NCBI GenBank assembly: GCA_947377865.1
Contig: CANCHK010000004.1
Location: forward strand, 1-64,000
Length of the DNA: 64,000 nucleotides
Origin: Opitutia bacterium
GTDB lineage: Bacteria > Verrucomicrobiota > Verrucomicrobiia > Opitutales > UBA953
Reading direction: 5' to 3'
Position 1 is the first letter of the stretch. Each line of letters begins with the position of its first letter. The notes under the pieces were generated by a model. That model did no database searches. It was not told where the DNA came from and saw only the letters and a program-made list of their open reading frames with translations. Below are positions 19,430 to 50,483 of the stretch, in pieces. The translations under genes were made by a program, and so were the position numbers.

Positions 19430-20112
19430 GACGGCAGGTTCGGCGATTGGGCGACCGAGCGCAAGCGGTCTCCGGTCTCCCTCTGAGTTGGTATCCAGGT
19501 AGAGACGCGACCGCGTCGCGTCCGTTCGCCGCGAAGACACGGACGCCACGCCGTGGCGCCCCTACCCAAGGCAAGTGGAAGCGGTTAGCGGTGGGCGGTT
19601 GGGAAAACCCTATCGGGAATCAGCCGCCGGGGACCTGGAGCCGATCGCCGAAGGCTGAAAAGCCGACTCCCGAATGGCCGATGCCCCGGTGGCCGTCACC
19701 CGTCACCTGAAGTTATGTTGAATGGTTGGATCGTTGAATGGTTGAATCGAAAAGGAGGTTCGACCGTATGAAAGGTGATGAGAGGTGGAATCGGTTGGCG
19801 GTTGGGGAGGCAGCTCACTCAAAGGGAGACCTGGGACCTGAGAATGGAGGTAGGGACGGCTCTCCGAGCCGTCCGTCCACAAAAGTGCGGCGGGCTCGGA
19901 GAGCCGCGCCCTACCTAGAGGGCACCTTGGTCAGCACACAGTGCTGACCCTACCCAAAGACAGGCGGATGCGATGTCATCGCATCCCTACCCATCCGGCC
20001 ACCTGAAGCAGCGTTGAATCGTTGGATCGTTGAATCTAAATGGAGGCAAAGCCCGCAGGGCGCCGCACTCCCTCCAGCCAACCATCCAACGATTCCACCA
20101 ATCAACCGGCCG
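19430..20112. repeat. Intergenic repeat block 6
   Basis: No gene. An inverted F is at 19467-19487, a GGTAGAG/CCTACC hairpin pair at 19498-19566, an E element at 19573-19710, and a half C element at 19716-19758 that breaks off after AAAAGGAGG. A fragment with an E head (CGGTTGGCGGTTGGG) and an F fragment (CTCAAAGGG) reaches 19825. Bases 19826-20027 repeat 7287-7488 almost perfectly, including the hairpin pair 19849-19915, a B hairpin and an A hairpin. A C element at 20013-20108 ends just before the terminator of the giant gene. Confidence 0.86.
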
Positions 20113-20139
20113 AAAAAATCAGGCCTTAGGCTGATTTTT
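20113..20139 (-). terminator. Intrinsic terminator overlapping the stop of the giant gene
   Basis: In gene orientation the last codons read into AAAAATCAGCC, a short loop, GGCCTGATTTTTT: an 8-bp A/T-rich stem plus 3 G-C pairs with one bulged base, ending in a T-run. The TGA stop (20119-20121) lies inside the right arm, so transcription should stop within a few bases of the last codon. Confidence 0.72.
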
Positions 20140-23100
20140 CCGCCTGCGCCTCATCGCCGCTGCGGCGAGAGCCAGCGCACCGATTCCGAAGCCGTAAGTG
20201 GAAGGCTCGGGCACGGCGGTTACCGTGATCAGGGTGCTGCCGGTAGTCCAATTGATCGACCAGAGGGAGCTGTTCACTACCCGACTACCGTCAGAGTAAT
20301 AGAAGTCGTCGAAATTAAACTGGAATACGTCGCTGATACTCGAGTTGGTGCCAAGATTAACACCACCCACAATCGCCAGATTGAACGTGATCGGACGAGA
20401 ATCGGCATTGCCGGGAGCCAGGAAGTGGTCCGGATTCCCGAGCGCCGTGCCGTCACCGCCGGTAAGCGCGCCCTTGAGCGAGACGACCTTGAAGACGATG
20501 GGATGGCTCGCACTGGCGTGGCTTAGGTCAAAGGTATTGTTGACCTTGATCTTATCATAGCCGCTCGTGGAATTCGTCGCATCCTGGACCTGCCAGAGGA
20601 AGTTGGAGTCGCCGAACATCGTGAGGGTGTCCTGCTCGAGCGTGCCCGGCGAATTGCCTGGAGAGAGAGTCGAGCCAGCGGCGGCCACGACAGCCTTAAC
20701 CTTACCGCTGCCACCCAGGACACCGCCGGAGCTCAGGGTGACATTACCCACCGAGCCGTTAATCGAAAGCTGGCCAGAGGTGTTGTCGAAATTGAGCCCA
20801 GGGCTGGCGACCGTGGTGCCGATCTTGAGTTTGCCCCCGATCACGGAAATCGAGCCGCCCGTGCCGACGGTGGGAGCCTCAGCGAACTCCACCACATTGC
20901 TTCCCATATCCAGCTTGGCCGTGGCGTTCGCCGGAACTTGAAGGCGATGGGAGATATCGTCCGTGTTATTGCTTCCAGACCAGACCAGGACGGTATTATT
21001 GCCGACCTGAATCACCGAGTCCTTGTAGCCATCACCCGTACCGAGCGAGCCGGAGGCGAAGCCGAGGGAGCCGCCATTGACCTCGACGCGCACGTCGCCA
21101 CGGAAGCGGTTGGCGGAACCGCCGATGACCCACTGTCCCGTTCCATCGATAGTGAGAACCGCCATGGCTGGACTGTTGGTGTCCAGAGTGGCCTCGAAGC
21201 GATTCACGCCCGCATTGCTGGCAGACAAGGTGAGCGCGGGATCGGTACCAGTGAGCTTGATAATCGAACTCGAGTTGAAGGTAAGCGCGCCGGTGCCCGA
21301 GGCGGCGATGGTGCCGGAGTCGGCGATGGTGAAGCTGCGAGAAGAGCTGGTGTTAGTATCACCTGTGAACTCGAGCTTCGCACCGGCTCCGATGACGAGC
21401 TTGGACGGGTCGCTCAGAGTGCCGACGCCCAAGGAGCTGCTGGTGTCAGCGAGGAACGACGCCTTGATGACCGCGCCAGCGACATTGGCGACCGTGGCGC
21501 CTTCATAGAAGTTCGGGGTCGAAAGGGTGAGCGTACCCCCGTCGGCTTTCGATAGGCCGCCGGTGCCAGTCAGCACGGTATTGATGACGGCAGTGGCACC
21601 CGAAGTGTTCGCATCGGCGGCCGACGGGCCACCGGTAATGTGTCCGCCCGTCTGTACAGTGATGGCGTTCGAGACGCCGTAACCGGCGAGATTGAGCGTG
21701 GCATCAGCAGCGACAGTGACAGCGCCAGATCCGAGAGACCCAAGGTTACCGAGAATCAGCGTACCGGCGTTGACGGAAGTGCCGCCGCCGAAGCTGTTGG
21801 CACCGGAAAGGGTCAGCGTGCCGCCGGTCGCCTTGATCAAGCTGCCCTTGGCGCCGGCAATGAGGCCAGCGAAGGTGCCGTCGTTGACCGTCAGGATAGT
21901 GGATAGAGTGGACGTACCCAGGTTGACCGTACCGTTCGTGAGCGTGCCAATCGTAGCCGTGGCTCCCTGAAGGTTAACCGTACCGGAAGTGAGCGTCGTG
22001 ATCTCTGCCACACCGGAGACGGTGGTCGTGCCGCCGGATACCTCGATTGATGTCAGCGAACCTGCGGTGTTGGTACCGGCGGTGATGGCACCGGTGAGCA
22101 GGCCGGTCACCGATACCGAGCTTCCAACCGAGCCCGTCATCGAACCCGCCGAAATCGTGCCCGCACCAGAGTAGACATTGCCCGTGAGCAGGCCGACGAC
22201 CGTGACGTCGCCCTCGGAAATTCCGCCCGTGATCGTGGCGGCTCCGCCGAAGCGGGTCTTGCCGGCGCCGGTCAGGCTCGCGACGGTGATGGCGCCCGTT
22301 CCCGAGAAGTTAAGCGCATTGGTTGCCGTACCCGCGTTGGACACGGCACCGACGGAAGACGGAGCGGCCGTGAACTCAGCGGTGGAGGTGGCGTCGGAAA
22401 GGGTAATCGTCGCACCCGACTTGAAATTAGCGGCGGACACTACGGCGCCCACGCCTACGGTGATACCGGAAGTTCCTGCCAGCGCACCAGAGGAAGCGTT
22501 CAGCGTACCGGCGGACACATTGGTGGCCCCGGTGTAGGTGTTCGCTCCGCTCAGCGTAAGGATGCCGTTGCCCGACTTAGAAAGACCAGCGGAACCATTG
22601 ACCAAGAGATTGGCGGAGACGGTCGCCGTGCCGGTGGTCAGGCTGGCGGCGTACGAAGAGCCGGTCAGGCTGCCGCCGGAAATGGTCGAAGCCGCGGTGA
22701 TGCTGACTGTGCCAACCGTCTGGGAAGTGGATCCCAGCGTCAGCGTGCCGCCGCTCATCAGCAGGTTCGAGCCGGAGCCCAGAGTGCCGCTACCGGAGAT
22801 GGCGACGGTACCTGCGGCGATTTCCGTGGTGCCGGCGTAGGTATTGGCACCCGAGAGGGTCAAGGTGCCGTTACCGGTCTTGGTGAGGCCGGCGGAGCCG
22901 TTGACCAAGAGGTTGGCCGACACGGTCGCCGTGCCGGTGGTCAGGCTGGCGGCATAGGAGGAGCCAGTGAGGCTACCTCCGGAGATGGTCGAGGCGGCGG
23001 TGATGCTCACCGTACCGACGCTCTGGGAAGTGGAGCCAAGCGTAAGGGTTCCGCCGCTCATCAGAAGAGCGGAGCCAGAGCCCAGCGTGCCGCTGCCGGA

Positions 23101-26100
23101 GATCGCCACGGTGCCCGCGGCGATTTCCGTGGTGCCGGCGTAGGTGTTCGCACCGGTGAGGGACAAGGTGCCGTTACCGGTCTTGGCAAGGCCGGCGGAA
23201 CCATTGGCCAGGAGGTTGGCGGAGACCGTTGCGGTGCCCGTGGTCAGGCTGGCCGCGTAGGACGAACCGGTGAGGCTGCCTCCGGAGATGGTCGACGGCG
23301 CGGTGATGCTCACCGCGCCGACGCTCTGGGAAGTGGAGCCAAGCGTGAGCGTTCCGCCGCTCATCAGAAGAGCGGAGCCAGAGCCCAGCGTGCCGCTGCC
23401 GGAGATCGCCACGGTGCCGGCGGCGACCTCCGTCGTACCAGTGTAGGTGTTCGCGACGGAAAGCGTCGTCGTGCTGGAACCCTGGAACTTGATACCGCCG
23501 CTGGTGTTGGCGCTGTTCAACGTGGCCGAGGCCGTCGCGGCCGTACCGGTGGTGCCGCCAACCAAGGTTGCCGTGGGGGCGGTGGTGTAGCCGGTTCCTG
23601 GGTTGGTGATGACGATACTGATCGTGCCGTCGTTATTGAGGACCGCGACCGCGGTGGCATCGCCGTTACCGCCGCCGCCCGTCAGCTTGACGAGGGGAGC
23701 TGTGAAGTAACCCGAGGCGCCAGTGACAGAGACGGAAGCCACGCCATTGCCGGCAGGAGCGACCAAGGACTTCGCGAGGGTGATCGCAAAGCCGCCGTTA
23801 TCAATCGTGCCGCCGCCGGAATAGACTGTCGCGGAAGTGAGGTTGGCGCTCAGGAAGGTGGTGCTGGCTGCTCCGGCCTTCAGGGTACCGCCGTTCAGGT
23901 TGAACTGAGCGAGGCCAGTGACACCGCTAATGCTTGAGATCGAGCCAGCCGTCAGCGTGCCGCCCAAGAGGTTGATGATGCCTTGGCTGGTGACGGTAGC
24001 TCCGACGGCATTAAGCGTCTTCGTACCGGCGTTGAAGGTGCCCCCGGTGTTTGAACCTCCCAGGTTGGCCCCAAGATTGACTTCGAAACGACCCGCCCAA
24101 GCACCTGACCCAGTTGCCAGGCTTGTCAAATCGAGCGTGCCTCCGGCGACGGTAGCCACGCCGGTGTTGGTCGAACTGGTCCGGCCACCGATGAAGTAAC
24201 TCGTCAGCTTGAGCGTGCCTCCATTGAGGACGGAGATTATGCCTGAGGTATTGCTCCCGCCGGTGCCCGCAGCCTGAAGACGAGGGGCTTGGAAGGAGCC
24301 TCCCGATATCGTGAAGGACCCGAAGGAGTTGTTGCCGTTGCCGACGCTGACGGTATCGCCATCAGCCTGTCCGAGCACGGACGTTCCCCCGGTCTGGACG
24401 AACGCCGCATTGGCACCGGTCCCGTTGCCCACATAGAAAGCGCCACCTGTGGAATTGGTCAGACCATTTGGCAGAACCAAAGTGCCCGCATTGACGTTGA
24501 GCGTATTGGCGCCCATGGCCAGGGTATTGGTCACGTCGAGACGACCCGCGCCGGACTTGGTGAAAGCTCCGGCGGCCGTGATCGCGGAGACGCCAAGGGT
24601 GAAGGTGTTAGCCGAGTCGGCGATATCGAAGGTCATCCCCCCGCTCGGGGTGAAGGTTCGGCTGGCATTCCACGAAGTGTAGGAGGTTCCAGTCACCTGC
24701 AGGCCGCCGCCATTCATGACGAAGGGCCCGGAGGTGGCGCCCAGCTTGGCATCAGACGAGACCGAGATCAGGCCGCCGGTGACGGTGACGCCGCCGGTGA
24801 AATCATTGGTTCCGGTCAGGATCTGGGTACCGCTGCCGGATTTAATGATGGCACCGCCACTACCAGTGATGGCGCCGGCATAGGTCGCCGTGCCAGTCGA
24901 GCTGATCGTCAGGGTGTTCGCCCCGAGGTTCAGGTTGCCGCTGCTCACCGTCGTCAAGGCGCCCAAGGTCTGCGAGGCGCCAAGGGTGATATTGCTTCCG
25001 CTGAAGGAGATCGCTCCCAGCACGTTGGCGCCAGACAGCGTATAGGTTCCGCCGCCGGTGACAGTGAGCGCACCACCGCCGGTGATCGCGGCGCTTATCG
25101 CCACGTCGTCGCTACGATTGAGGATAAGCGTGGCGGAGTTCGAGACGGCGGCGTTAGTGCCGAGCGTACCGGTGGTTCCGCCCGTGCCGACCTGCAAGGT
25201 TCCGCCCGACACGGTGATGAGTCCGCTGTAGCTGGGGTTCGAGGCCGCCAAGATCATCGTGCCCGTGCCAGACTTGTTCAATGCACCGGAACCGGTGAGC
25301 GCTCCGTTGACGTTCGTGGCGGCATTACTGGACACCGTCCAGACGCCGGCTCCGGAATTGACGGTGGAATTGAAGGTGGTCGCGGCCACGCCGGAGAGCG
25401 ACACGGCGCCTCCGTTGGTGGTGACTGCGCCTCCGAAGGTCGTCGTGCCTGCACCGGAGATGGTCAAAGTGCCCGTCGCGTTGATCGTGACAGTGCTTCC
25501 GAAGGTGGTCGTTCCTCCCGTTGTTGTGACGCTGATGCCACCGGCCGCACCACTGACGGTGACAGCGCCGTTGAGGGTATTGGTACCGTTATTGGAAACC
25601 TGGACGCCATTGCTCGTGGAAGAACTGGTCACGCTTCCGCTGATCGTGGTCGCTCCGCTTCCGTTGATGATAAGGGCGCTCGTACCGACGGAGACATTGG
25701 GCGCTATCGTGGCCGTCCCCCCGAACATCGTCACGGTGAAGTTGGCGTTGGTCAGGTTGAGGGTGCTACCCGTCAGCTCTAAATCCCCTCCGTTGCCCAA
25801 CAAGCTCAAGGCGAGCGAGGAGGAGGCAATATTGCCAGCGAGGGTCAACTTTCCGGCATCGGAAGAGAAGGACGTGGCGGCGGTGAAGTTCGCGGACGGG
25901 AGGGTGGCGCTGTTGTTGCCGGCGACGTTGTAGATGGCCGAGGGACCACCGTAGGCGGTGATGCGGGTACTGAGGGCGATGTCACCGCTGCCATCGTTGT
26001 TCAGGCGCAGGGAACTGTTGGAAATGGAGATTGAGCCCGAGCCGAGGGCCGAGGGATCCTTCATTTCGATTTCGCCGCCGGTGAGGGTGACATTGCCGCT

Positions 26101-32100: not shown

Positions 32101-35100
32101 GACGGAGCTCGCATCGGAGATCTGATTGCCACCCGTGCCTGAAATCTTGACCGTGGCGGCGTCACCCGAAGCGACGGCGGAGATGATGAGAGCAGCTCCA
32201 CAAGAAAGGTCGACAGCCGAAATCGCCGCGGTCGTCGTCTTGTTGAGCAACAACGTGCCAGCGGAGACGCGGATGCTGAGATAGGCGTTGTTGGCGTTGG
32301 TGGCTAGGTCCTTGAGTTCGAGGACACCGCTGCCGGTCTTGGTCAGCAGGCCGGCGTTAAGGGTGATGTTATGCGCATTAGCCGTGGCCACGCCCACCAG
32401 GGTGGTGTTGAGCGTCAAGGTGTTAGCGACGACCTCGATCGTGCTAGGCGCATTGACCGTGAAACCATGGTCGGTGGCCGAGTTGACCGAAAGATTTGCC
32501 TGGAAGGTGCCACCGTTGAGGATGATATCGCCCGAAGACGCGGTCTTCTGGCCGAGCGGACCGGCGACGGACGAAGCGTTGACGGAATCCACCCTAAGGA
32601 CGCCGCTGTTAACGATCAGCGAGCCGGCCGTCCAGGTGTTTGCCCCAGCCAAAAGCACGGTGCCGCTACCGGACACGGAGACGGCTCCCAAGGTTCCCGA
32701 ACCGGCTGCGGTGTTATTCGTGATGGCAGAATTAACCGTCAGAAGATTGGCCGAATTATTGATGAAGATCAGGTCGCCCGCGGAGTTAGCGGTTGCGCTT
32801 CCTGCCGTGATCGAGCCGGCGCTTCCCGAGACACCGATCGTGACCGCCCCGCTGGTGGAGGCCATCAGGATGCCGCCCGCCTCGGTAACACCAGTCGTGG
32901 CGGAACCAGCGCCGAGGCGAAGCGTTCCTGCAGTCGACCCGTTGCGGATATCGACCGTTCGAGCGTTTGTATCGCTGAATTTGAGGGTGTTGGCGTTGAT
33001 GACACCCGTTGATGCCAAGCTAATGTTGTTAGTCGTGTTGGCATTGACGACGTAGTTGCTAGCTGAACTGTCCGTGATCGTCGGAGCAGACGAACTGGCG
33101 CCCGTTAGGGCTGAATAAGCCGTGAATTGACCGATGTTGGTGCCATCCGCCTTTGCCCAGTCGTCCCCGTTCCAGGTGGTGGCGCCATTGACCAAGCCGG
33201 CGTAACCAGCTGTCACGTAGTTGACGGAACCCGTCGGCACGGAGAAATTAAGCCTGCTGCCGGCGGTGCGGGTGATGGCGCCCAATGTCAGCGCCATGTT
33301 GTCAGTCAGGTTGATGACGTTGGCCCTGGCGTTGACCGTCACGGCTCCAAAGGTCTGGCCATAGGTGCCGGTAATCTGCAGGGTGCCTCCATTGCCGTAG
33401 TTGCTGCTGCTAACGCCCAACACAAGGGGGGCAGAGGCGACCCAGACGGTTCCGCCCGCGTTCGCCGCATCGAGCGTCAGCTTACCGGCGTAGACCGTCA
33501 GCGCGGCTGCCGTCGTCGTGGCGTTCAGCGACTGAGCCTTCAGCGTGAGGGTGCCCAGACCAGTCTTGATCAGACGGCTGTTGGCAAAGTTCGTTCCCGT
33601 GATGACGCCCGAGAGCGTCAGCTCCGAGCCGTCCGGCGTATTGAAATTCGCGTCAATGACGACGGCGGCGGTCGAAGATCCGCTCGTGATCGAGACCGGA
33701 CGGGTCCCTAGGTTCACCGAAGCCACCCCCGGCTGAATCTGGACCGTCTCGCTGGCTGCGCTCGTCCCGGAACCCAGGGTGAGAGGACCACCGACCGAAC
33801 CGAAGGAGGCGTTGGAATCGATCACATAGGTGCCATTGACCTGAATAGTGGCGCCGCCGGTGAACGTCTTGGCCACGCCACCGTTGGCGGACGTCGTCAA
33901 CATGGAGAGATAGCCACCAGTACTTTGGGCGTAGCTGAGGGCCTGGACATTCGTGAAATCGCCGAAGAAGAGGCCGCGCGACCGTCCCGTCATCGTGATG
34001 GACGCACGACCACCGAAATCGAAGGTTCCAAGATAGGAAAGCGTGTTCTGCAACGCATTGGCGAGGAGGCTGCCGGTGCCGGCGTCAGCCGAGAATTCAA
34101 TGCCGCCGCTAGCGGTGCCGGCATTGATATTGTTTACGAAAGCGTGGTCTCCGTTGACCGCGCCGAAGTGCGTGGTCTGAGTTCCGGCCAGGGTGATGTC
34201 TCCGGTGCCGAAGGCGGCGTCGCTACCCACGCCGATGCGCACGGAGGAAATGGCGTTGCCGTTGATGGCCGTTCCCCCCGAGAAGTTGTTCGTCGCGGTG
34301 ATCGAGGTGATTCCGAAAGTGAAGTCCGCCGAATTCGCGCCCGTAAGGACGTTCTTACCGGAAAGAACCAAGGTATTGGCGCCGGAAATGGTACCTCCGG
34401 AGGACGCCAACTGTCCGCCGAAACGGTAGGTGGCCAAGTAAGGAGTGATCGTGCCGCTGAAGTTGACGGCCTTGACCGCGGTCGGAGCGCTGCCGCTCGC
34501 GGTGGACACAAAGTTGAAGCCTGCCAACCTCATGTTGGGGAAAGCAGTGAAGTCGAGAGCGGCGGTGCTATCCGCACCGAGCAGGAAGGCCGACGTGGCA
34601 GTGGAAGCGTTGGTGATCCGGCCGCTGAAAGTGGACGTCGGATTGGTATCGCCGATGACGCCGATGGAGGAGTTCGTGACCGAATTCGTCGAAAGGGTGA
34701 TATTGGAACCCGAACCGATCAGCGCTCCCGCGCTCGCGAATACAAGGCCACCTGTCGTGAGGCTGACAGTGGCTCCCGCCGTGTTCGTGGAGTTCGAGTC
34801 ATTGGAGATCACCAAGGTGCCTGTTCCGATCTTCGAGATGCCGCCGCTCGTTCCGGCGCTCAGGAGTCCGCTGAGCTCGGCCTGATAGGCCGGCCCCGCC
34901 GATTCAACGGTATCGACCCCGATGGTCCGCGCTGCCGTCCCGAGCTGGATAGCGTTCTTGAATTCAATCGCCCCACTCAATGCGACGGAGTTACTACTGC
35001 CTGCAGCCGTGCCGAACTGGAGAGTGGAGTTGGTCGGAACGAATCCTCCTGACCCCCAGGTGAGCTGAGCAGCTGAACCACCGAGATTGACCGCCCTGGT

Positions 35101-44100: not shown

Positions 44101-47100
44101 GGTCGTCGCGGCCGCCTTAAGGTCCAATATCGCCGAACCACTTCCACCGAAAGTCACGGTGTTGGAAAGTGTACCGAAGGCTCCCGCCGCGGTTCCCACA
44201 AGAGTGCCGCCATTGAGGAAGATGCCGCCCGTCAGGGTATTGGTGCCTTGGAGCGTCGTCGTGCCGGTATAGTTCGAGTCGAGGGTGATGCTCGTGGCCC
44301 CGGCCGGACCCCAGACACCAGTAGCGGTGAAATTACCGTTTCCTTTGATGGTGGTATTGGAATTGGCCGACCAATTGCCGGTCACCGCGCCGACCTGGAA
44401 TAAAGTCGTCGCGCCGCTGGCAGGGTTCGTGATATTGATCGTGGGACTGCCGATCAAGGTCACCGCGCCCAGCGTGATACCTTGGACCCCGGAAATCGCC
44501 GTGGTGCTTGTGACATTAAGGGTGTTCGAACCCAGCACGAGGGTGCCTGCATTCGTATGCTGCACGCCGGCGACTCCGGTCGCCGTCGAAGTGGAAATCG
44601 TCGAATCGGCGCTGACGACCAGCCCGTATGTGCCGAAGGCCGTCAGGGTATCGCTGGTGAAGTTCAGCGTACCTCCGTTGAGGTTCACATAAGAGGCGTT
44701 CGTTCCCAGCGCGGTGGCCGAAGTCAGCTTCAACGTACCCGCATCGACCTGGGTCATGCCGGTACGGGCGCTAGTGGTCGTGAGCGTCAACGTGCCGGCA
44801 CCGACCTTGGTCAGCTGGAATATATTGGCGCCGACAACTGCGGCACTGAGTATGATGTCTCCGGATCCACCGATGGAAGCAGGCGCGTTGAGGGTAACGG
44901 TCCCCGCGACCGTCACGGCGGTACCGCTGGAATTCGTCAAGGCACCGGTGTTATTGACACCCGATCCTGCCAGGCCAATCGCTTCGGCGGTGCCGATGGC
45001 GAAGCCGCCGAGGTCCAACGCTCCTCCGACCTGGACGTTGGTTCCCGCGCCGGTAGTTCCCAGCGGGGTATTGGTCACGCCGCCAGCCGCTCCGAGCTTC
45101 AGGGTGCCGGCATTGATATTGGTGACGCCCGTGTAGGTATTTTGTCCCGAGACGATGAGCGTGCCGTCACCGAGCTTGTTCAGGGTGCCGGCACCGCTGC
45201 TGATCAGGCTGGAAATGGTCAACGCCGCAGTCGTGCTGGTCTGGTTGACGATGACATTGCTCGCGGCAGCGCCCACCTGGCCGCCGGTCAAGGTCAGCGC
45301 GTTGCCCCCCTTGAACAGGATAGCTTCACCTGTGAGCGTCAGGATATTGCCGGCGGCACCCATGTCGATCGTGCCGCCATTGCTGGTGGTATCGATTGTC
45401 AAGGTATTCACCGAGCGCGTCGTCAACGCCCCCGCATTGGTCCAAGTAAGTATGCCGCTAGAATAGGTGCTCCCGCGAGTAGTGAAATTGGTTGTCGACG
45501 TGTTGGAAGAGGTCGTGAGCGTCGTCGCCGCCGTCTCATCAGCGTAGCGGGAGATGGCCACGCTGGAACCGGCAGCGCGCGTGGCGAAACCCGTGACGCC
45601 TGAATTATCCTTCACGAACATCCAGCCGTAGATACCGTTCGCAAGGGCGGTGCCGGTCGTGGCATTAGCCGTCACCACCGAGCGCGTCCCCGTATTCGCG
45701 GAAGAATAATCGATCAGGACGGTGGAACCGGCGCCGCGAGTCCAGGCGTCTCCAAGGGTCAGCGTAGTGCTGGTTCCGCCGTTCGGATCGATGGAAATGA
45801 CGCTGTGCGTGGCGGCGGTGGTCGTCAACGCCCCCATCGTCTGCGTCGAAGTGCCGGTAGAGCTTCCGCGGACGGACAGGATACCGACATTGGAAGTGGA
45901 TCCCAAGGTGAGGGCGGAAGAAGCGCTGACAATCCCCGTCGACAAGCCGGCAAGATTGAGGACCAGGGTGCCAGCCGAGATCGTCGTGGTGCCAGTATAG
46001 GTACTCGCCACGGTTCCGGCCAACTCCATCGAGCCCGTACCGGCCTTGGTGAGACCGAAGGTGAGTCCGGTTATCGGCGCAGAGATGGTAAGCTCCGAGG
46101 CACTGGCAGGAACGGTGAAGCTGTCGCCAATCGTGAAAGTGCGTGCAGCGGACATCGCGATCGAGCCGCCGGTCGTGGAGGTGATCGTGGCAGCCTGTGC
46201 CTGAGTATAGCCGTTGAGCGAGACATTGCCCCCCAAGGTCAGGGTTCCGGCGCCGAGGCTGACCGTGGCCGAAGTGTGGATCTGGCTGGATCCCCCGTAG
46301 AATGACAGGGAGTTCAGTGTCTGGTTATAGCCATTGAGGTCGAGGCCATAGGGTATCGTGCCACCCGTGCTAGCAAATGCAAAACCAGTTATAGGCAGTG
46401 CACCATTGACCCCCAGCTGGATCGTTCCACCCTTGATCGAGGTGCTTCCCGTCCATTGCGGCGAGGCTCCCGAAAGCGTCAGGATGCCGGTGCCGTTCTT
46501 TTCAAGGATAGCACCAAAGGCTCCCGAGAACGTGCCCGAGAACGTCGTGCTGGTGTTATCGTAACCTACCGAAAGAGTCGGGGTGCCAGAACTGACACTC
46601 ACAGAACCGGCGCCAGCCAACGAGCCGATGGACGTGCTGAAGCTGACCAGATTCAAAGTCGCGCCAGTGTCCACCGTGACGGGGACGCTGTTACCTAGGG
46701 TCGTTGTACCGTTTCCGGCGGTGCTTGCCACCCCCATCTGGAGGATGCCTTTTGCAACCCTAACCGGGCCGCTGAAAGTGTTGGTGGCAAGCGACAGGAT
46801 CAAGGTGCCGTCACCATCTTTTTTGAAACCTCCCACACCGCTGATGACTCCCGGGATGGTCAAAGCCTGCCCCAAAGTAGAGACATCGATCGTGGCCTGA
46901 CCGCCGACCAACGTGAAAGTATGGCTATTGGTGGTCGTACCAGCGGCCAGCGAAGCGGTATTGCCGGTATACTGCAACGTCGCCCCGTCGCGCAGGGACA
47001 CGGCGGTAGCGACACCTAAGCCGAGCACGCCGGCTCCGGTTGCACCCGCATTGCTGAAGCTCAGTATCCCGCCGTTGACATAAACCGCACCGGTGAAGGT

Positions 47101-48891
47101 ATTCGCTCCGGAGAGAATCAACTTGCCCGTCCCGGCCTTGGTCAGCACTTGCAAACCGTTTCCGGTTCCGATGATGGCGCTGATGGTCAGCACACCCGAT
47201 CCGTACGTGGTGACGATCAATTCGGAATTGGTGGCTATCCCGCTGTTCAAGGCACCGGTGCTGCTGCTGATCGTGTAATCGTTGGCACCGGTGAAGAGAA
47301 GACCGCCGTTCGTGAGGATGAGGTTATTGGCGCCGAGGGCCAACGTCTGTCCGGTGGCGCCAGCATCAATCTTCAGGGAGTTCGTAATCCAGGCGGCTCC
47401 CCCGGTCGTGGTCTCGCTGGCGGTGGTGGAAGAAATTCTCGAATTGGAGGTATTCGTTCCCGCAGGCGTCGTTCCGGCGATATCCGTGTAGCTAGAATAA
47501 GCCACCGCAGCGGTTGTCGTGCCCGTATTAGCCGCCCAATTATAAGTAGACCCATCGGTGAAAACCGCGCCGCCGCTCAACGTGGTGGCCGTGTTCATCG
47601 CGGTCCCCAGCTTGACGATTGTGTTGGCCGGGGCGTTGATCAGCAAAGCTCCGCCAGCAGACCTCGTATACGTTCCGAGGGTCAAGGTGGTACCCGAAGC
47701 ATCCCCTGCGGTCATGATGATGGAACCGCCGCCAGGCCCTACCGTCAAGTTACCCAATGTCTGGGAGACCGCGAGTCCACTCTTCCCGATCACTTCCAGA
47801 TTACCACCGGAGATGGATGGCGCCGAAGACGCCAACATGCTGGTCAGGGATCCGCCGGTAAAATCGAGTCTGAGCGCGCCGCCGTTGATGATGGTTGCTC
47901 CCGTGTAAGTGCTCGCCGCCGTAGGTGCAAAGATTAAGGTGCCGCCGCCGATCTTGGTGATAGAGATGTTCGCTGCGGTAACCGGGGTAATACGCCCGGT
48001 AAAAGTGGTGTTCCCGGTGGCGTCATTCCGGCCGATCGTGAGCACGCGAGAGGTGTTCAGCAGATTGGTGACATCCCCGGCGCCGGCCAGCGAGCCGATC
48101 GTGATGGCGGCGTTCAGGTCGAGCGCCCCTCCGGAATTCACGGTGACGGCGGAACGAACCGGGAGTCCGGATGTAGAAGAGATTCTCAGCCAACCGCCGT
48201 TGATCGTGGTCGTGCCAGAGTAGGTGTTGGAAGCGTTCAGGACAGTGATTCCTGCGTCGTTCTTGGTCAGGCCGCCACTGGTGGAGATTATCCCGTTCAC
48301 AAGAATGGAGCCCGTGGAGACGGCCCCCGTGCCTGCGAACGTAATGCTGGAATTCAACGACCGGATGCCGCCGTTCAGTGTCAGCGTGCCGAGGGTATCG
48401 CTGTTCGTGATGGTCAGGCTGTCGTTGAACTGGAAACTCGTGTAGATCGAATCGGCAGCGGCGCCGGTCTTCGTGATCGCCGCCGAGCCCGATGCGACGT
48501 CGAAGATGAAGTATGCGCTGTTCGCGAAAGAGCCGCCGTTGCTGGCACCGTAATTAGAACCGCCCGAGTTGAGGGTGAAAGAATTCGAGCCATCGCTGTC
48601 GCCGATGTTCAACGACCCAAGAGTGATCAGCCCGTTGAGGTTGACGCTCACCGAGCCGGAGATATTGTTCGTCAGGTTGGCGGTATCCCCAACGGCGTTG
48701 GGGTAAGCCGAGGTGCTCCAATTGCTGGCGTAATCCCACCCGTAAGCGCCGGTCGCCGTCTGATTCCAGCTGAGATTCGCGGCCTTGGCTTTCGGCGCAG
48801 TCGACACGGCCACGCCGAGCAACGCCGCGGCCACCATAAGGGAGGCGCGCGACAAAGCTCCGCGTGTGGGCTGTCGACGGGGTTCGGACAT
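20119..48891 (-). CDS. Giant exported beta-strand-repeat (PATR-type) protein with PEP-CTERM anchor
   Basis: One uninterrupted frame of 9,590 codons. Residues 1-37 form a signal peptide with a long basic n-region (MSEPRRQPTRGALSRAS), a hydrophobic core (LMVAAALLGVAVS) and the cleavage region AKAA|NLSW. Almost all of the rest consists of dozens of degenerate autotransporter-associated beta-strand repeats of the form LTKxGxGTLxLSGxNTYxGxTxVxxGTL, expected to stack as a Gly/Ser/Thr/Asn-rich beta-helix. It ends with VPEPSTYG, a hydrophobic helix and RRRRKNQPKA, a classic PEP-CTERM signal, so an exosortase encoded elsewhere should process and anchor it; there is no C-terminal autotransporter barrel. 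Trp-rich modules start near residues 39, 2225, 6126, 6800 and 7497. Three near-identical 101-aa repeats lie near 8480-8790. Likely an adhesin or surface-layer/biofilm protein. No Shine-Dalgarno sequence is seen before the ATG. Confidence 0.93.
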   Translation of the reverse strand: MSEPRRQPTRGALSRASLMVAAALLGVAVSTAPKAKAANLSWNQTATGAYGWDYASNWSTSAYPNAVGDTANLTNNISGSVSVNLNGLITLGSLNIGDSDGSNSFTLNSGGSNYGASNGGSFANSAYFIFDVASGSAAITKTGAAADSIYTSFQFNDSLTITNSDTLGTLTLNGGIRSLNSSITFAGTGAVSTGSILVNGIISTSGGLTKNDAGITVLNASNTYSGTTTINGGWLRISSTSGLPVRSAVTVNSGGALDLNAAITIGSLAGAGDVTNLLNTSRVLTIGRNDATGNTTFTGRITPVTAANISITKIGGGTLIFAPTAASTYTGATIINGGALRLDFTGGSLTSMLASSAPSISGGNLEVIGKSGLAVSQTLGNLTVGPGGGSIIMTAGDASGTTLTLGTYTRSAGGALLINAPANTIVKLGTAMNTATTLSGGAVFTDGSTYNWAANTGTTTAAVAYSSYTDIAGTTPAGTNTSNSRISSTTASETTTGGAAWITNSLKIDAGATGQTLALGANNLILTNGGLLFTGANDYTISSSTGALNSGIATNSELIVTTYGSGVLTISAIIGTGNGLQVLTKAGTGKLILSGANTFTGAVYVNGGILSFSNAGATGAGVLGLGVATAVSLRDGATLQYTGNTASLAAGTTTNSHTFTLVGGQATIDVSTLGQALTIPGVISGVGGFKKDGDGTLILSLATNTFSGPVRVAKGILQMGVASTAGNGTTTLGNSVPVTVDTGATLNLVSFSTSIGSLAGAGSVSVSSGTPTLSVGYDNTSTTFSGTFSGAFGAILEKNGTGILTLSGASPQWTGSTSIKGGTIQLGVNGALPITGFAFASTGGTIPYGLDLNGYNQTLNSLSFYGGSSQIHTSATVSLGAGTLTLGGNVSLNGYTQAQAATITSTTGGSIAMSAARTFTIGDSFTVPASASELTISAPITGLTFGLTKAGTGSMELAGTVASTYTGTTTISAGTLVLNLAGLSTGIVSASSALTLGSTSNVGILSVRGSSTGTSTQTMGALTTTAATHSVISIDPNGGTSTTLTLGDAWTRGAGSTVLIDYSSANTGTRSVVTANATTGTALANGIYGWMFVKDNSGVTGFATRAAGSSVAISRYADETAATTLTTSSNTSTTNFTTRGSTYSSGILTWTNAGALTTRSVNTLTIDTTSNGGTIDMGAAGNILTLTGEAILFKGGNALTLTGGQVGAAASNVIVNQTSTTAALTISSLISSGAGTLNKLGDGTLIVSGQNTYTGVTNINAGTLKLGAAGGVTNTPLGTTGAGTNVQVGGALDLGGFAIGTAEAIGLAGSGVNNTGALTNSSGTAVTVAGTVTLNAPASIGGSGDIILSAAVVGANIFQLTKVGAGTLTLTTTSARTGMTQVDAGTLKLTSATALGTNASYVNLNGGTLNFTSDTLTAFGTYGLVVSADSTISTSTATGVAGVQHTNAGTLVLGSNTLNVTSTTAISGVQGITLGAVTLIGSPTINITNPASGATTLFQVGAVTGNWSANSNTTIKGNGNFTATGVWGPAGATSITLDSNYTGTTTLQGTNTLTGGIFLNGGTLVGTAAGAFGTLSNTVTFGGSGSAILDLKAAATTFTSKVDASLASGAIYVEPAASGAGVTHIISGAATLGGGYTLKVTGGTNVTSGTAQLTMTGTVTMTGAAILNILNPASGSTILKTAAIANGGYNLTLIGNGSYQQSAAMSAASGGLILGVSGGTGFTGTATLDQANLFTGAVRINSGTLAASTSASSLGNGSTVYLGDTSGSASATLNLGGTTFSATNPIIVNTGSSGTLTIAGTAAVNFALTGAITLNNALTLSETSTGKLTVGAGGITGSSALTVTAGTGTVALDGNNISTYTGAINVSTGILQLANAGALGSTGAGTTVTSGATLDLNGFAIVNESLTISGSGVSSNGALINSSVTDASFSGSISLLADSSVGGANGLALSGAISGSGSLTKVGAGTTTLSGTNTSFTGPVTISGGTLSIGASNNLGDASATNTLTLAGGALAFTGGSVNLGANRTVAIGTGGATFNITGTQLTVSAAVSGANDLTKTGAGSLVLSNTLNTNSGAVIVNGGTLSVHPSAILTATSVTVGSTVTGSVLDLYADGVAASTSLASGRNVTLGGTGGLTGAIGFQLAAPGSGDQLAFSGGGSFLIASGGVGLINAKALTGFAAGSWTLVSGATANSTTFALGSLPGGFGYSLTQSATGLSLTATAAAGANYYWAGDLSGSWSGFTGASTNTNWSTAAGTNTDATASPGTGQTVTFSLTSGAQNYSTTLDNAFSIGNLTFADTRGKAGSAVSIAPGLSGTLQLNGTTAAITLAAGAPTGTSISAPVILGANNTWTVTDATTTFTVSGAISESAAGRTLTTAGAGTIILSGANSYTGLTTIGATSIVNIQNSTALGTSAGATTVTSGGTLQIQGSGLSIGDAITISGTGFGAGGVLRNISGSNTLTGLVTMAAVSRINSDTGTLTLDVASGNAITGAFALTLGGAGSGFITDPIATTTGTLTKDGIGTWTLSGANTYSGLTTISGGTLQVGNGTAGSLNGTTGTALTFSDTGSFIVSEASGVSQGMGALTFTSGDGTIQSINNGGTSSLTFASLAVRGAGATANFISPTNKIVLTSTTNAPLAASGSNNQGYFFAGSNYARYSAANGTFQAVVYGTDSNAQSAVAGGATLGFNNALYDGQITDAITAQTTASLNTLSIVGNKNVTLAAAQTLTVNGILKSGNQAGGAIISGGTGITPGSGVEMVLRADGANDSLLIATPILANGANALTKSGAGTVILLSANTHTGITYVDGGILQLRNVSGAGTTAAGTTVRTGAALQLSVGGTYGAETLSLNGTGVGGNGALVLDASASWAGAITFATASTLNVANGAIFTTSAANVFTGPVTKNGAGTWSIITTANTGTGALVVNGGVVTSSIGLATTSITANSGATFRLTGAGTTAIADAAIITVNAGGVLDWQQTGAETLGTLLLNGSGIGSAGAFTTSAATTGGTMTVTNGIILQSDSTIGTFTGGSLKTITPITSNVFTLTKEGAGSFTSTDSTTLTTPFGAGSIVLNAGTLVLAPATAASYAMVGANHLPASTFTYGSSTGPGGSLTLTRTLTAGNTLSYTVGSTSAVSSALVRGGRGTLVLQPTALANLGSAGTSYENFVVNGLTSAANVNGIYNPSVVAQVSNIGTFVRYSATAGAGFEDAATATSSYTVAATGTTIAANTISDVTSSISLNDTSNPYALRVGAFTLTNSGTTTVGSGSGQAGLIMNSTATSATITGGTLAFGAAEGVIFTASTTPATGNATIASIITGSAGITKFGPGALILSGLNTFTGGLNLNQGTLNIQGTTALGAAASTFSIFAGTTLDTLAAGIVNANANPVSILGDFTFTGTGNLSLGTGAITMTGSRTITSSAAANSLTLAGAITGSGTLTKAGAGQLTLSGSNTALTGGVTLSAGILNLNSANALGSSAGTFTINGGTLNNSSSATVTNAGNNPVLVLGNFTFAGTQALNLGTGAVTMGLTSTGTVPTITVSGSPLTLGGNISEAGFSTGIAKLGSGMLTLGGTGSTFTGVLDVVGAVSVASLSDYGVASSIGARSAMQETASGSGIGLHLGSGTAGGMLVYSGSTAQSTNRQIRIAQSTSVSINASGTGSGTLSFTYSGANTYLFDTAGVRTLTLTGSNTGINRFALLLEDQNASTGKTSLAKSGVGQWVLTNVNTFTGSTTVNAGTLTLDASVNSATSGVISSASALTLAGGTLAITGATAATTQTFASMSLAANTQSTLSATAGANGLTVVTGAITRGASSAVNIVTSGAPTVTLTSGLVAANGIIASATTSAAYVTLGGADWANLSGTTASAASYVDDAFTTSASNINVTTTGAWAGTSLNTLRFNTGTPTLTLTGANTLAAGGLLIGSGAGAVTLDGTGTLTGTQFAAANGELNVFNYSSSTATLTATVVNNVTATSYLAAAAYGDLLSIFGTGTTLLNSTKNAYTGGTNISGTATLKLGQNNAIPGVLQPGILSISGGATLDLNGKTQTIYGLIGSGTVNNTTATAINFTVGYNTLSTVANAFSGVIQNTGGGAVTMVKTGLGTLTISGQQLYTGGTTINQGTLALGFSTASADINANILPVSALTIGSGTLGLVGSTAGNIQNFTGTTLAGGATVTVSGTTPAATLNLGAITRASGTGLAVNAGTSPTGTVNTTTANTGTSILGGWAVQGATTPTTWAVSAGNGTTSGAITGLGTYLTTTSAGTTAANYLTTSNVDVTSTLTLGGVVTFNSLRFNTAGANTLTLATGVNTINTGGILVTSTVGTNTSTIAGGTLIPGAGAELIINHFDSTANALSITSIIADNGGTKTNITVNGTGLVQLRVPTGSTNTFTGVVTINNATYDVSTTAQASSPTGYVLNGGTLNWQIGGSIATTSLLTLGPAGGTLYTYGATGTHTYFQTTAATMSGVGSRTLTFTGGTDSRVVQFSPILGDPTGGVTSVVIYEGGATRIVRMASVSTYTGYTRITQGVLDVNNVANAIYGSSGFTSTATTGNIIFGATSGGTTRAILSLGTISGDFTRSLGYGQGQVHWEGNGGFSNGLGGSNAAVIATRAVNLGGSAAQLTWGSGGFVPTNSTLQFGTAAGSSNSVALSGAIEFKNAIQLGTAARTIGVDTVESAGPAYQAELSGLLSAGTSGGISKIGTGTLVISNDSNSTNTAGATVSLTTGGLVFASAGALIGSGSNITLSTNSVTNSSIGVIGDTNPTSTFSGRITNASTATSAFLLGADSTAALDFTAFPNMRLAGFNFVSTASGSAPTAVKAVNFSGTITPYLATYRFGGQLASSGGTISGANTLVLSGKNVLTGANSADFTFGITSITATNNFSGGTAINGNAISSVRIGVGSDAAFGTGDITLAGTQTTHFGAVNGDHAFVNNINAGTASGGIEFSADAGTGSLLANALQNTLSYLGTFDFGGRASITMTGRSRGLFFGDFTNVQALSYAQSTGGYLSMLTTSANGGVAKTFTGGATIQVNGTYVIDSNASFGSVGGPLTLGSGTSAASETVQIQPGVASVNLGTRPVSITSGSSTAAVVIDANFNTPDGSELTLSGVITGTNFANSRLIKTGLGTLTLKAQSLNATTTAAALTVYAGKLTLDAANAGGTVWVASAPLVLGVSSSNYGNGGTLQITGTYGQTFGAVTVNARANVINLTDNMALTLGAITRTAGSRLNFSVPTGSVNYVTAGYAGLVNGATTWNGDDWAKADGTNIGQFTAYSALTGASSSAPTITDSSASNYVVNANTTNNISLASTGVINANTLKFSDTNARTVDIRNGSTAGTLRLGAGSATTGVTEAGGILMASTSGAVTIGVSGSAGSITAGSATANSAGDLIFINNSANLLTVNSAITNNTAAGSGTLGAVSVSGSGTVLLAGANTWTAGSLIVNSGVLRVDSVNASSVAGPLGQKTASSGDIILNGGTFQANLSVNSATDHGFTVNAPSTIEVVANTLTLNTTLVGVATANAHNITLNAGLLTKTGSGVLELKDLATNANNAYLSIRVSAGTLLLNKTTTAAISAVDLSCGAALIISAVASGDAATVKISGTGGNQISDASSVVVNAGTVNGVLDLFGSTETIDGLAGGGSVTNSAASASTLSVGGNNSAGLSAYTLGAAAAGVNAAGLNSFSGVISDGTSAISLTKVGSGTQILAGNNTYSGATTITAGTLKLGIANALPSGTGKSLVSIQGNQYGVAVGGSGLLLAPGTLDMGGFSQAINGLVSTTGGFVTNNPTLAYADGAWAVATAVRGTKTLTIGNTDGLDASFSGVIRDGYSVAPGAVTVAYVGAIDLVKTGSNTQTLSGANVFGGSTAVQNGKLILSGGSNRLPSSTQLTLGNSANSGVLQLGDGAAAVSQTVAGLTTSGSGSSNAVVGGNADGNSSLILNQSGAATYSGALGGAGANQNKLSFTLQGGGTLILSGSNTLTGTTTVLGGSTLILSSALASSALVVGGASSGTVITAQDLTGLVSLGSGGTLSLGATAATDTATLVLNGGLTMSAGSLIALQVGTTKDLLRITGGTFTFNGGNLSLSETSGLAVGSYNLIDYNGATLAGSSLSSLGLTSSVLGANNLYVKLQNDATNKVVKLIVDNARFWSGSVGKTWDASQQFANWSPAQFFRNNDKVLFQDTYPSGANDIPVVNSTVELPLGTYATPAALTFNNSLIDYVIQGAGQIGGSTDLTKSGTRGLTISNANAFTGITIINGGYVEMRHASALGTTAGGIIVNAGTLRLNGGIAVGAKALTLSGAGDASGGALRSISGANSYSGAITLGGAARINSDAGSLILSGAINNAANLLTFGGAGDIAVSGVISGAGGLVVDGTGVVTLSNEANTFAGKTTVKSGTLSVSKIGSVGTAGGLGTAADAAAGTIALGNLTSSGTLRWTGSTNEISDRVIDLAGTTGGAVIEASGSAGLTLSSAVEASGVGAKTLTLAGTGGTLLAPNSIGAISDASSTGLSLVKTGSGVWSLSSANTYTGTTSILNGTLLLGANQSLGSLTLGGLARSAGTLDLGASATATLTGDVTYSAANNPRGATISGSGTGTLDLGGASDATVSISRTFAVGSSAAATGADLTVSAVIADAGGVASTFANGLTKTGNGTLVLTGDNTGFLGTTSVDGGKLSVYPRSIAYSSTINVGTNGTTGSLDLYADGVVNSLTLAANATLKVGGTAAAGGLGFNLSGNTSDSIILPSTGTLTVGTAGGIINARVLSAATASSYTLIDTTAGTLNGTLSNFTLGVLTGGYSYSLDASSTSGQLKLNASAAAAGPYYWTGARSTNSWATLASNGAASNWATGSAAGSDAGATPGVIDVYFTGASAAVTTLDQPYSLTGLFLSGAGNVTINAGSGDGVLTLGSGGISVATGAASTGHTIGANVVLGSAQSWNVADLTQLLTVSGDISGSGLLTKTGNGVLVLSGTNSFTDGVSVTGGTVKISNANSLGASTGSLTLGNATLQATASLADTRGVTLGNANSTVLVDATRTLTLSGKLTGSGMLNATGAGTLVLDDSASNNNFSGGSVLSGGGIVQVYRLSGLGSGNITLNDATLRVSGSFNDTRLLTVGNAASVLSVDSGNTLTLTGKLTGSGTLNATGAGTLVLDDTALANDFTGGAVLSGRGTVKVAKVTSLGTTAGSITINDATLQPTASLSYSGQAFVFGNAASALTVPSDVTLSIANVSGTKITGSGKLNADVAGTLVLDDSAQANIYASGSVLSGGGTVKVNTATSLGAQTGAAALKDITLQATADITTTRNFTVGSAASVITVDSAKTFAISGTIVDGSQSGALTKSGNGVLELSGTGNTYTGGTNVTAGILNVTNASGSATGTGAVIVSGSSTILGGAGRIDGAVTIGTGSTLSPGGTNTAGTITLGGLTLSSDSKLNFQLGATASSDKVAVGSSGFAASGGEITLAGISGLTGGTYSLITYSGTLGGSGFSGLSLASGSELVTFGANTYYAYLVNATGAINVATTGNLTWKGNVSGTVWNTGTSGAANWSAGSVTGLKNQDGLGATFDDTATGFTVNLPGTVSPSSITVSAANDYLIQGAGKITGSTGIAKSLAGRLTIDAANDFSGNVTLTGGEIEMKDPSALGSGSISISNSSLRLNNDGSGDIALSTRITAYGGPSAIYNVAGNNSATLPSANFTAATSFSSDAGKLTLAGNIASSSLALSLLGNGGDLELTGSTLNLTNANFTVTMFGGTATIAPNVSVGTSALIINGSGATTISGSVTSSSTSNGVQVSNNGTNTLNGAVTVSGAAGGISVTTTGGTTTFGSTVTINATGTLTISGAGTTTFGGAVTTNGGAVSLSGVAATTFNSTVNSGAGVWTVSSNAATNVNGALTGSGALNKSGTGTMILAASNPSYSGLITVSGGTLQVGTGGTTGTLGTNAAVSNSATLILNRSDDVAISAAITGGGALTVTGGGTYTLSGANVLGAISFSGSNITLGASQTLGALTTVSSGNLNLGANTLTISSTGTATYAGAITGSGGAIIKSGSGTQILTGTNDFTGGVTVTGGLISVSSDAKLGATSGPFVMNGGGLQVTGTSYTSWNASRTFTPSGGMTFDIADSANTFTLGVSAITAAGAFTKSGAGRLDVTNTLAMGANTLNVNAGTLVLPNGLTNSTGGAFYVGNGTGANAAFVQTGGTSVLGQADGDTVSVGNGNNSFGSFTISGGSFQAPRLQAAGTGGSNTSGIISVLNGGTLKLTSYFIGGRTSSTNTGVATVAGGTLDLTSLATGSGAWAGRFEVNLGANLGGSNTGGTFNAGTKTLNAVGATVTSQGIINLLGGTLTAGSISSISGVTGLAQFNLNGGTLKAGAASTTFLSANLTSATVYSGGGTIDNGGFAITLAKSLVAPAGNGVASVSVTGASGYFTAPLVKLTGGGGNGDATAVAVLNNDGTISIVITNPGTGYTTAPTATLVGGTTGTAATASATLNSANTSGGIKFQGSSTTTLSVANTYTGTTEVAAGTVAISGSGTLGSGSALLMSGGTLTLGSTSQSVGAVSITAPSTISGGSLTGSSYAASLTTGTATVSANLLANGSAGLAKTGNGTLSLTGANTYAGTTEIAAGTVAISGSGTLGSGSALLMSGGTLTLGSTSQSVGTVSITAASTISGGSLTGSSYAASLTTGTATVSANLLVNGSAGLTKTGNGTLTLSGANTYAGTTEIAAGTVAISGSGTLGSGSNLLMSGGTLTLGSTSQTVGTVSITAASTISGGSLTGSSYAASLTTGTATVSANLLVNGSAGLSKSGNGILTLSGANTYTGATNVSAGTLNASSGALAGTSGITVGVGAVVSAANFKSGATITLSDATSTAEFTAAPSSVGAVSNAGTATNALNFSGTGAITVASLTGAGKTRFGGAATITGGISEGDVTVVGLLTGNVYSGAGTISAGSMTGSVGSSVSVTGLLTGAITAGTNTAGSLTSIEVSGGTTTVSGVAEITTLTSGTVNLQGATATIGTLTNGTVNLGTSTLSTILTVNDGTFAGLIAGAKGSLIKATGGTLTLSGANSFGGGTSVNAGTLILGNLGSLGSGAVTVAADATLNLAGYGVSNAITVQTGGHITGGPSAADANTSGATAVINTVLTGTGGLSKADGGTLTLSTPNFYEGATVANVAGAVIKASFLADTSSSLGVGTLSDPSKLVIGAGAKLEFTGDTNTSSSRSFTIADSGTIAASGTGALTFNSSSIIKLTGTDPALTLSASNAGVNRFEATLDTNSPAMAVLTIDGTGQWVIGGSANRFRGDVRVEVNGGSLGFASGSLGTGDGYKDSVIQVGNNTVLVWSGSNNTDDISHRLQVPANATAKLDMGSNVVEFAEAPTVGTGGSISVIGGKLKIGTTVASPGLNFDNTSGQLSINGSVGNVTLSSGGVLGGSGKVKAVVAAAGSTLSPGNSPGTLEQDTLTMFGDSNFLWQVQDATNSTSGYDKIKVNNTFDLSHASASHPIVFKVVSLKGALTGGDGTALGNPDHFLAPGNADSRPITFNLAIVGGVNLGTNSSISDVFQFNFDDFYYSDGSRVVNSSLWSINWTTGSTLITVTAVPEPSTYGFGIGALALAAAAMRRRRKNQPKA
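22530..23445 (-). repeat. Three tandem 303-bp repeats inside the giant gene
   Basis: The same sequence recurs with a period of exactly 303 bp (the word GTGCCGGTGGTCAGG or a one-base variant starts at 22628, 22931 and 23234), i.e. 101 codons. Units two and three are the most alike at DNA level, including synonymous positions. They encode SGSGTLGSGSALLMSGGTLT-type PATR units. This is the clearest trace of recent internal duplication in the gene. Confidence 0.88.
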
Positions 48892-49557
48892 TCTACTGTG
48901 TCAGTTTATTAACAAATGGGAAAACTCGGGGCAGGGGCCACGAGTCGAATGGGGTGTAAGGGTACTAGGCGATTCCACCTAATAGATACCCCTCAGGCAA
49001 GGCAGAATCCCGCTAAGGTGCATTTAAAGGTCGGGTTACGGAAAGAGGGTGATCGGAAGGACGACCGACCCCACCCTTCCGGCACCCCCAGGGCCTATCG
49101 AAGGGTGCCATTTTGTCTATTTTTAGACATAATGCGTTTATTTTATGTAAAACTGTGATTGATAAGGTTTTAAGATGAAAAATGAGTGGGTCCGTTGACC
49201 AGCTGGCCAGTTGACAAGGAATGCCATGGGTAGAGGCGGTTAGCGGTTGGCGGATGGGACAACATTTTCTGGGAATCTGCCCGGGAGCCCGAAGCCGATG
49301 GCCGATGGCTGAAACGCCAATTCCTGAGGGGCCGATGCCCTGGTGGCCGTCACCCGACACCCGAGAACGGGTGGAATCGTTGGATAGTTGAATGGTTGAA
49401 TCGAAAAGGAGGCAAAGCCCGCAGGGCGCAGCACTCCCTCCAGCCAACCATCCAACAAATCAACCGATCAACGGCTCCGCCAACCCCACCTTTGCACAAG
49501 CCGCAGGCCGATTTGCACTTTTGCACACTAGGTCAGCACGCAGTGCTGACCCTACCC
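48892..49557. repeat. Upstream region of the giant gene and repeat block 7
   Basis: No gene. 48892-49190 is non-repetitive and should carry the promoter of the giant gene; its distal part (49105-49190) is unusually A/T-rich. From 49226 the usual modules follow in order: an E element 49226-49370 headed by GCGGTTAGCGGTTGGCGG, a C element 49374-49474, a D module 49487-49530 (TTTGCAC units and GCCGCAGGC), and a B hairpin 49532-49556 that ends one base before the arsC stop codon. Confidence 0.82.
49114..49129. promoter_or_regulatory. Perfect hairpin/operator-like palindrome upstream of the giant gene
   Basis: TGTCTA, TTTT, TAGACA: 6-bp perfect arms in the A/T-rich stretch about 225 bp upstream of the giant gene's ATG. 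It could be a regulator binding site or part of an extended promoter region. Only the palindrome is seen; the function is a guess. Confidence 0.35.
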
Positions 49558-50001: not shown

Positions 50002-50483
50002 CGTGGCGAAGCCACGAGGATTAGGGGACAAGTGGGCACGGGGGCAAGGAGGTAGGGACGGCTCTCCGAGCCGTCCGTCCACAAAAGTGCGGCGGGCTCG
50101 GAGAGCCGCGCCCTACCTAGGGGGCACCTAGGTCAGCACGCAGTGCTGACCCTACCCAAAGACAGGCGGATGCGATGTCATCGCATCCCTACCCCGCCAC
50201 CTGCCACCTGGGGCTGCCACCCGCCACCCGTAGTTCGGTTGAATCGTTGGATGGTTGAATGGTTGGATAGATTAAGACCAAAGCCCGCAGGGCGTCGCAC
50301 TCCCTCCAGCCAACCATCCAACAAATCAACCGATCAACGGCTCCGCCAACCCCACCTTTGCACAAGCCGTAGGCCGATTTGCACTTTTGCACCTAGGTCA
50401 GCACGCGGTGCTGCCCCTACCCGATACTCGATACTCCAAACTCCATACTCGAAAACAACTCCCCCACTGCCACTCTCCCGCCC
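50002..50483. repeat. Intergenic repeat block 8
   Basis: No gene. The 67-bp GGTAGGG pair, copy 3, lies at 50051-50117, a B hairpin at 50131-50156, an A hairpin at 50167-50192, CCACC-type short units to 50230, a C element at 50237-50344, a D module at 50355-50395 and a B hairpin at 50398-50422. Four heptamers of the GATACTC type (50423-50450) and a pyrimidine-rich leader follow up to the yhaM-like ATG. Confidence 0.85.

Follow-up and report, generated by a model that had tools for sequence, protein, structure and literature searches.

On the minus strand of the window (the whole 64,000-nucleotide stretch of DNA analysed here, from contig C4 of a UBA953-like freshwater Opitutia MAG of 2.32 Mb in 128 contigs with 76% completeness), positions 20119–48891 carry a giant gene at what we term locus A. 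It encodes a PATR/PEP-CTERM protein of 9,590 residues, a predicted surface fibre, and the recurrence of similar giants at two fixed sites across the genus shows that the frame is a real gene under selection. The frame extends from ATG to stop over 9,590 codons with no internal stops, and the calculated mass of 922.5 kDa agrees with the approximately 0.9 MDa in a single frame given in the preliminary description. Across the same DNA, the remaining five frames contain 69 to 782 stops each, and since even the lowest of these rates gives a stop-free run a probability of about e^-69, this frame did not arise by chance. The gene has a GC3 of 0.77 and the protein a calculated pI of 5.05; Gly, Thr, Ala, and Ser together account for 57% of its composition, whereas Glu, Lys, and Arg contribute less than 1.5% each. 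Cysteine, noted from the outset as nearly absent, occurs exactly once, at residue 5564 in LSCGAAL (codon at 32200–32202, minus strand). The downstream neighbour is xseA, for the exodeoxyribonuclease VII large subunit (18245–19549, minus strand; PF02601), and the upstream neighbour encodes a low-molecular-weight phosphotyrosine phosphatase (49558–50082, minus strand; PF01451).

Residues 208–9046 (21754–48270, minus strand) form a region of PATR beta-strand repeats (PF12951/TIGR02601), in which 38 PF12951 matches at E ≤ 1e-3 bear out the earlier impression of dozens of copies. Moreover, TIGR02601 scored 234 and 206 bits on the two halves of the protein, a wider PATR profile built from our analysis gave 53 matches at E < 0.01, and the looser hits (n = 71) lie a median of 106 residues apart. 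Here, we also noticed an in-frame tandem of three copies of 303 bp, or 101 residues (22558–23454, minus strand; 85% matches). Beyond PATR and PEP-CTERM, a Pfam scan of the protein returned no domain; PF03797 was without a match, as expected from the barrel absence already described, and NCBIfam added just weak autotransporter matches that lie far below cut-off. An AlphaFold2 model of residues 573–879 (307 aa), with the internal repeats serving as alignment, gave a pLDDT of 68.7 and a pTM of 0.74 and consists entirely of short beta strands. Its comparison by VIA with parallel beta-helices gave Z scores of up to 15.0, including the SRRP adhesin (14.5), HxuA (12.8), TibA (11.0), and the P22 tailspike (about 11), whereas a Foldseek search with this single 307-aa segment found nothing significant (best E of 0.73). 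The closest PDB sequence match is the IcsA autotransporter (E = 0.0085), and the C-terminal 466 residues, when modelled alone, gave a pLDDT of 46. If every 0.48-nm turn of the body took up about 22 residues, the full-length rod would measure roughly 0.2 micrometre.

The two ends of the protein are distinctive. The signal peptide reported in the preliminary description is present by eye at residues 1–37 (48781–48891, minus strand), with a basic n-region, a hydrophobic core, and an AKA^A site, all conserved among relatives, and cleavage is likely at AKA^AN. Within it, the leader core RASLMVAA (residues 15–22; 48827–48849, minus strand) is shared with other giants, whose leaders have SRASLMVAAALL or near variants in common. 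A degenerate DNA pattern for RA[S/T]LMVAA matched 22 times in 55 congener genomes, against a single match for the reversed control pattern, and at 22 of 22 occurrences a Gly/Thr/Ser/Ala/Asn-rich frame begins. All nine of the frames known to be complete at both ends terminate in PEP-CTERM, the others being cut by a contig end, broken in BS6, or with ends not examined. The core is absent from all 10 of the genus barrel autotransporters with a visible start. We also observed that the genus has neighbouring pairs of such barrel autotransporters of 2,400–3,100 aa (L188, L189, L191, and L192), with the distinct conserved leaders MRISKSLLVAAAM and MKLSRKFLVLAS, and that a separate family of PEP-CTERM proteins of about 1,000 aa (L193, L194, L195, and L196) has members throughout the genus and a leader of its own (e.g. 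...FAALFAMGVAAS...). As these shorter proteins have different leaders, a motif general to all PEP-CTERM proteins is ruled out. At the C-terminal end, the giants have in common the tail LTAVPEPSTYG.G.GALALAAAA.RRR, and in the window protein the sorting signal is composed of VPEPSTYG, a hydrophobic helix, and RRRRK (20143–20217, minus strand), a canonical PEP-CTERM tail as first described, scoring 31.3 bits with PF07589 (cut-off of 20.7). A C-terminal module of 466 residues (20122–21519, minus strand) is shared, at no more than 59% identity, with many PEP-CTERM proteins of the genus and has matches in 43 of the 55 genus genomes; against named genomes, it gave no confirmed relative.

The preliminary description had proposed a search for exosortase genes in the genome, and this revealed one in the MAG (G000:C27; PF09721, E = 1.7e-33), with exosortases likewise in 50 of the 55 genus genomes. 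Its score with TIGR04178 is 43 bits versus a cut-off of 23, though the specific XrtA model gives 64.2 bits, below the cut-off of 208; judged by sequence and by the NCBI cut-off, the enzyme is thus a general family member of unassigned subtype and not XrtA. Identity to the exosortases of freshwater Opitutia MAGs is 66–86%, and to that of 'Opitutia bacterium UBA953' 83%. In this enzyme family, the expected catalytic residues are Cys and Arg, plus His or Arg, and here Cys217 (in ACSG), Arg267, and His304 are invariant in 26 of 26 aligned homologues. The exosortase gene is neighboured by glgA and a lipoyl synthase gene, which is not a polysaccharide locus, and the MAG's one polysaccharide export gene (PF02563, Poly_export; E = 8e-16) is found at G000:C44, with PF02563 in 49 of the 55 genus genomes. 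The MAG also has one match to the barrel autotransporter domain PF03797 and, on contig C1, a second giant frame with a PEP-CTERM match (8,605 codons). Together, these two genes account for about 2.3% of this 2.3-Mb assembly of a lake bacterium, a cost that must be repaid.

Within its own genus, the window giant is not exceptional. Matches to PEP-CTERM occur in 42 of the 55 genomes and PF03797 barrel autotransporters in 44, and the longest giant PEP-CTERM frames among the congeners, all intact, have 12,377, 12,014, 11,897, and 11,590 codons. Locus A, the site in the window, adjoins xseA, a hydroxyisobutyrate-dehydrogenase-like gene, and the pyruvate kinase gene, an arrangement that is also seen in G004, G015, and G016, where xseA (84% identity) stands beside giants on G004:C70, G015:C79, and G016:C1. 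Locus B, home of the giant on C1, is bounded by an ApbE/ferredoxin/FMN-binding gene on one side and a GDSL lipase/GntP pair on the other, likewise in G004 and G015, and is one-sided or fragmentary in G001, G011, G038, G047, G050, and G051. As a separate observation, G046:C15 (L101 and L102) contains two giant frames in tandem, the first with 7,787 codons and the second, truncated by the contig end, with at least 4,388; the first 1,277 residues of the window protein are closest to the second of these frames and the last 1,159 to the first. Among plasmid records, one weak partial match to the giant was found (Cupriavidus).

Comparison of the giants between species shows purifying selection on their coding sequence. 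In fact, the giants at locus B in G004 and G051, two different species with frames of about 12,000 codons, align end to end over 11,690 codons with 74% identity and a dN/dS of 0.24, and pN is below pS in 11 of 11 windows of 1,000 codons. Values of 0.11 and 0.21 were obtained for G038 versus G050 and for G001 versus G038, respectively. For the window gene, residues 3250–6825 compared with G001:C54 gave a dN/dS of 0.21 over 3,493 codons, a rough figure given a dS of 1.6, and one that covers 36% of the gene's length. Across the alignable blocks of the giants, dN/dS ranges from 0.11 to 0.26 and is even over most of the length, which, with congener frames of up to 12,377 codons intact, upholds the earlier claim of strong selection. 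As judged from these alignments, the ends of the giants are shared and the interiors are mosaic with quick turnover: flanking genes are mostly 84–98% identical between species, yet the window giant aligns with other giants only over an N-terminal stretch of a few hundred to about 1,300 residues, over roughly its last thousand, and in patches. The interior of this locus-A giant has a counterpart in G001:C54, which is located upstream at locus B (58% over 3,700 aligned columns), and this suggests exchange between the two loci.

Could the gene nonetheless be an assembly artefact or a decaying pseudogene? The fragmented and incomplete state of the MAG would allow for this, as would the homologues in congener BS6 (G016), which show one frame switch within about 13 kb at locus A and one to three elsewhere. 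BS6 is probably a long-read assembly, judged from its 'tig...' contig names, and its coding composition carries on in the new frame after each switch; these may be either residual indels or real frame switching. On BS6 contigs C1, C9, and C26 (L103, L204, and L205), we noticed switches every 5–10 kb, with the neighbouring genes on C1 unbroken. Against an artefact or a pseudogene are the independent intact frames in several congeners, the 11,690 codons collinear between two species, a dN/dS well under 1, and exact repeats of 68 bp at most. Indeed, exact repeats inside the gene do not exceed 68 bp, and no exact match to the region of the second giant is longer than 18 bp, so collapse in short-read assembly is unlikely and was rejected. 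We therefore regard an artefact or pseudogene as very unlikely. Of the frameshifts, repeat collapse, and missing exosortase that the preliminary description had set against its own reading, collapse thus falls away, the exosortase is present, and congener frames are intact, though the frame switches in the probably long-read BS6 homologues stand.

A further repeat in the window is a palindromic intergenic element of about 100 bp with GTTGRATN octamer arms and a G+C-rich core, of which there are about ten copies (470–590, 7464–7584, 17905–18000, 19707–19800, 20003–20110, 49361–49470, 50228–50330, 53107–53210, 56260–56370, and 62047–62160), flanking the giant gene on both sides. It is REP- or MITE-like, and four copies fold much better than their shuffled versions (z values of -4.6 to -9.8). 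Its motif has 30 hits on C4, two on C8, and none in the other MAG stretches and relatives read. The possibility that this clustering marks C4 as a misbinned contig was rejected because C4 has tetranucleotide correlations of 0.956–0.984 and like GC when set against 14 additional stretches of the MAG, of which 13 lie on different contigs. At 698–3241 and 62369–64000 (-), the window also encodes DUF7133/HEAT/cytochrome c proteins, which are of a type that Planctomycetes and Verrucomicrobia commonly have.

On balance, we think it probable that the giant is a rod with a parallel beta-helix fold, processed by the exosortase, and that it links cells to polysaccharide, surfaces, particles, or each other. 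From the signals at its two ends, the protein would be exported by Sec via the family-specific signal peptide, held in the inner membrane by the hydrophobic C-terminal helix and basic tail, and cut at the PEP motif by the genome's exosortase, with the cleaved body then being passed to an acceptor, probably polysaccharide or a membrane-linked molecule. This body may form a right-handed parallel beta-helix, with PATR and similar units as its turns, and would anchor extracellular polysaccharide to the cell, or tie cells to particles or one another, and interior segments would be gained, lost, and exchanged as the two ends stay fixed. Such a scheme follows the working model published for PEP-CTERM proteins, in which Sec exports the protein, the C-terminal helix retains it, and the exosortase cleaves it, and which describes the path across the outer membrane as unknown (PMC12188702). 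The giants are an extreme case of this barrel-less crossing of the outer membrane, a question common to all PEP-CTERM proteins. As for function, the cohesion of flocs or biofilms in Zoogloea, Aquincola, and Nostoc depends on PEP-CTERM proteins and exosortases (PMC9012009, PMC9850573, PMC12188702), with PEP-CTERM proteins required for flocs in the first two, and a PEP-CTERM set was detected by proteomics in the verrucomicrobial relative Akkermansia (PMC4960237). By analogy, a link between the cell surface and polysaccharide, or between cells and particles, seems most likely.

Other roles are conceivable for a protein of this kind. Made and processed likewise, the giant might be released from the cell or built into the extracellular polysaccharide matrix as a scaffold and not an adhesin, a possibility to which we give some weight, as the Nostoc exosortase alters which PEP-CTERM proteins reach the exoproteome, polysaccharide attachment is among the models offered there (PMC12188702), and the MAG has its polysaccharide export gene. 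It seems improbable that the giant is a cell coat, either S-layer-like or a shield against grazers or phages, with length and sequence turnover under selection; giants that align at their ends and in patches alone between conserved flanks, and a G001 locus-B segment resembling a locus-A interior, would fit this, but the low dN/dS in alignable blocks gives no sign of point-by-point diversifying selection. It is scarcely credible that the protein is the passenger of a type Va autotransporter with a lost or overlooked barrel: PATR is named after autotransporter passengers and true barrel proteins are widespread in the genus, but the frame is without a PF03797 barrel, the giant terminates in RRRRKNQPKA and the genus barrels in Phe, and those barrel proteins have different signal peptides. 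Moreover, a scan of flanking ORFs showed no recognisable gene for a separate, dedicated barrel partner. As to the leader core, RA[S/T]LMVAA could be a dedicated routing signal working with the PEP-CTERM tail, and the two giant loci would in that case be cassettes from which surface proteins can be exchanged, their ends fixed and their interiors shuffled among loci and species; we consider this rather unlikely, and shared ancestry of the N-terminus within the family suffices to account for the distribution of the core. Either way, the conserved leader is a concrete and testable handle on export routing.

Among known systems, the adhesive rod that we favour is closest to PEP-CTERM/exosortase (EpsH), first seen in Verrucomicrobium spinosum (Haft et al., 2006; PMC1569441), an outer-membrane bacterium of the same phylum as the giant's host. 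Both have a signal peptide, a PEP motif, a helix, a basic tail, a genomic exosortase, and a polysaccharide export gene, though the giant differs in its body of about 9,600 aa, its conserved leader core, and an exosortase that is away from polysaccharide genes and below the XrtA cut-off. With PATR proteins (PF12951, TIGR02601), it shares the repeat itself and a predicted parallel beta-helix, but an exosortase-type tail replaces the PF03797 barrel of the autotransporters. Annotations that combine PATR repeats with a PEP-CTERM tail are common in Verrucomicrobiota. The barrel autotransporters of the genus (e.g. G041:C2 and G049:C4, 2,600–3,100 aa) similarly have Gly/Thr/Ser/Ala/Asn-rich repeat passengers, yet their leaders are MRISKSLLVAAAM... 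or MKLSRKFLVLAS..., and each has a C-terminal barrel with a final Phe. Huge bacterial proteins are reviewed in PMC11573180, and sizes up to about 85,800 aa are cited in PMC12057145. Like the giants of the PVC superphylum, the window protein is very long and, by prediction, extracellular, and belongs to the same superphylum, but the described PVC giants stress carbohydrate-active or predation domains, whereas here repeats alone are recognised, along with the exosortase tag. The YSIRK signal peptides and LPXTG tails of Gram-positives (PMC5962339) offer an analogy, in that a leader motif is paired with a C-terminal sorting tag; there is no homology, and any location-directing by RA[S/T]LMVAA is hypothetical. 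PEP-CTERM proteins, PATR proteins, and PVC-superphylum giants are each already known (PMC1569441, PMC11573180, PMC12057145), and in the literature searched no paper had both 'PEP-CTERM' and 'autotransporter-associated beta strand'. As far as this literature shows, what is new by comparison is a genus-wide, two-locus family of PEP-CTERM giants of 8,000–12,400 codons, with fixed ends, mosaic interiors, and a common leader core.
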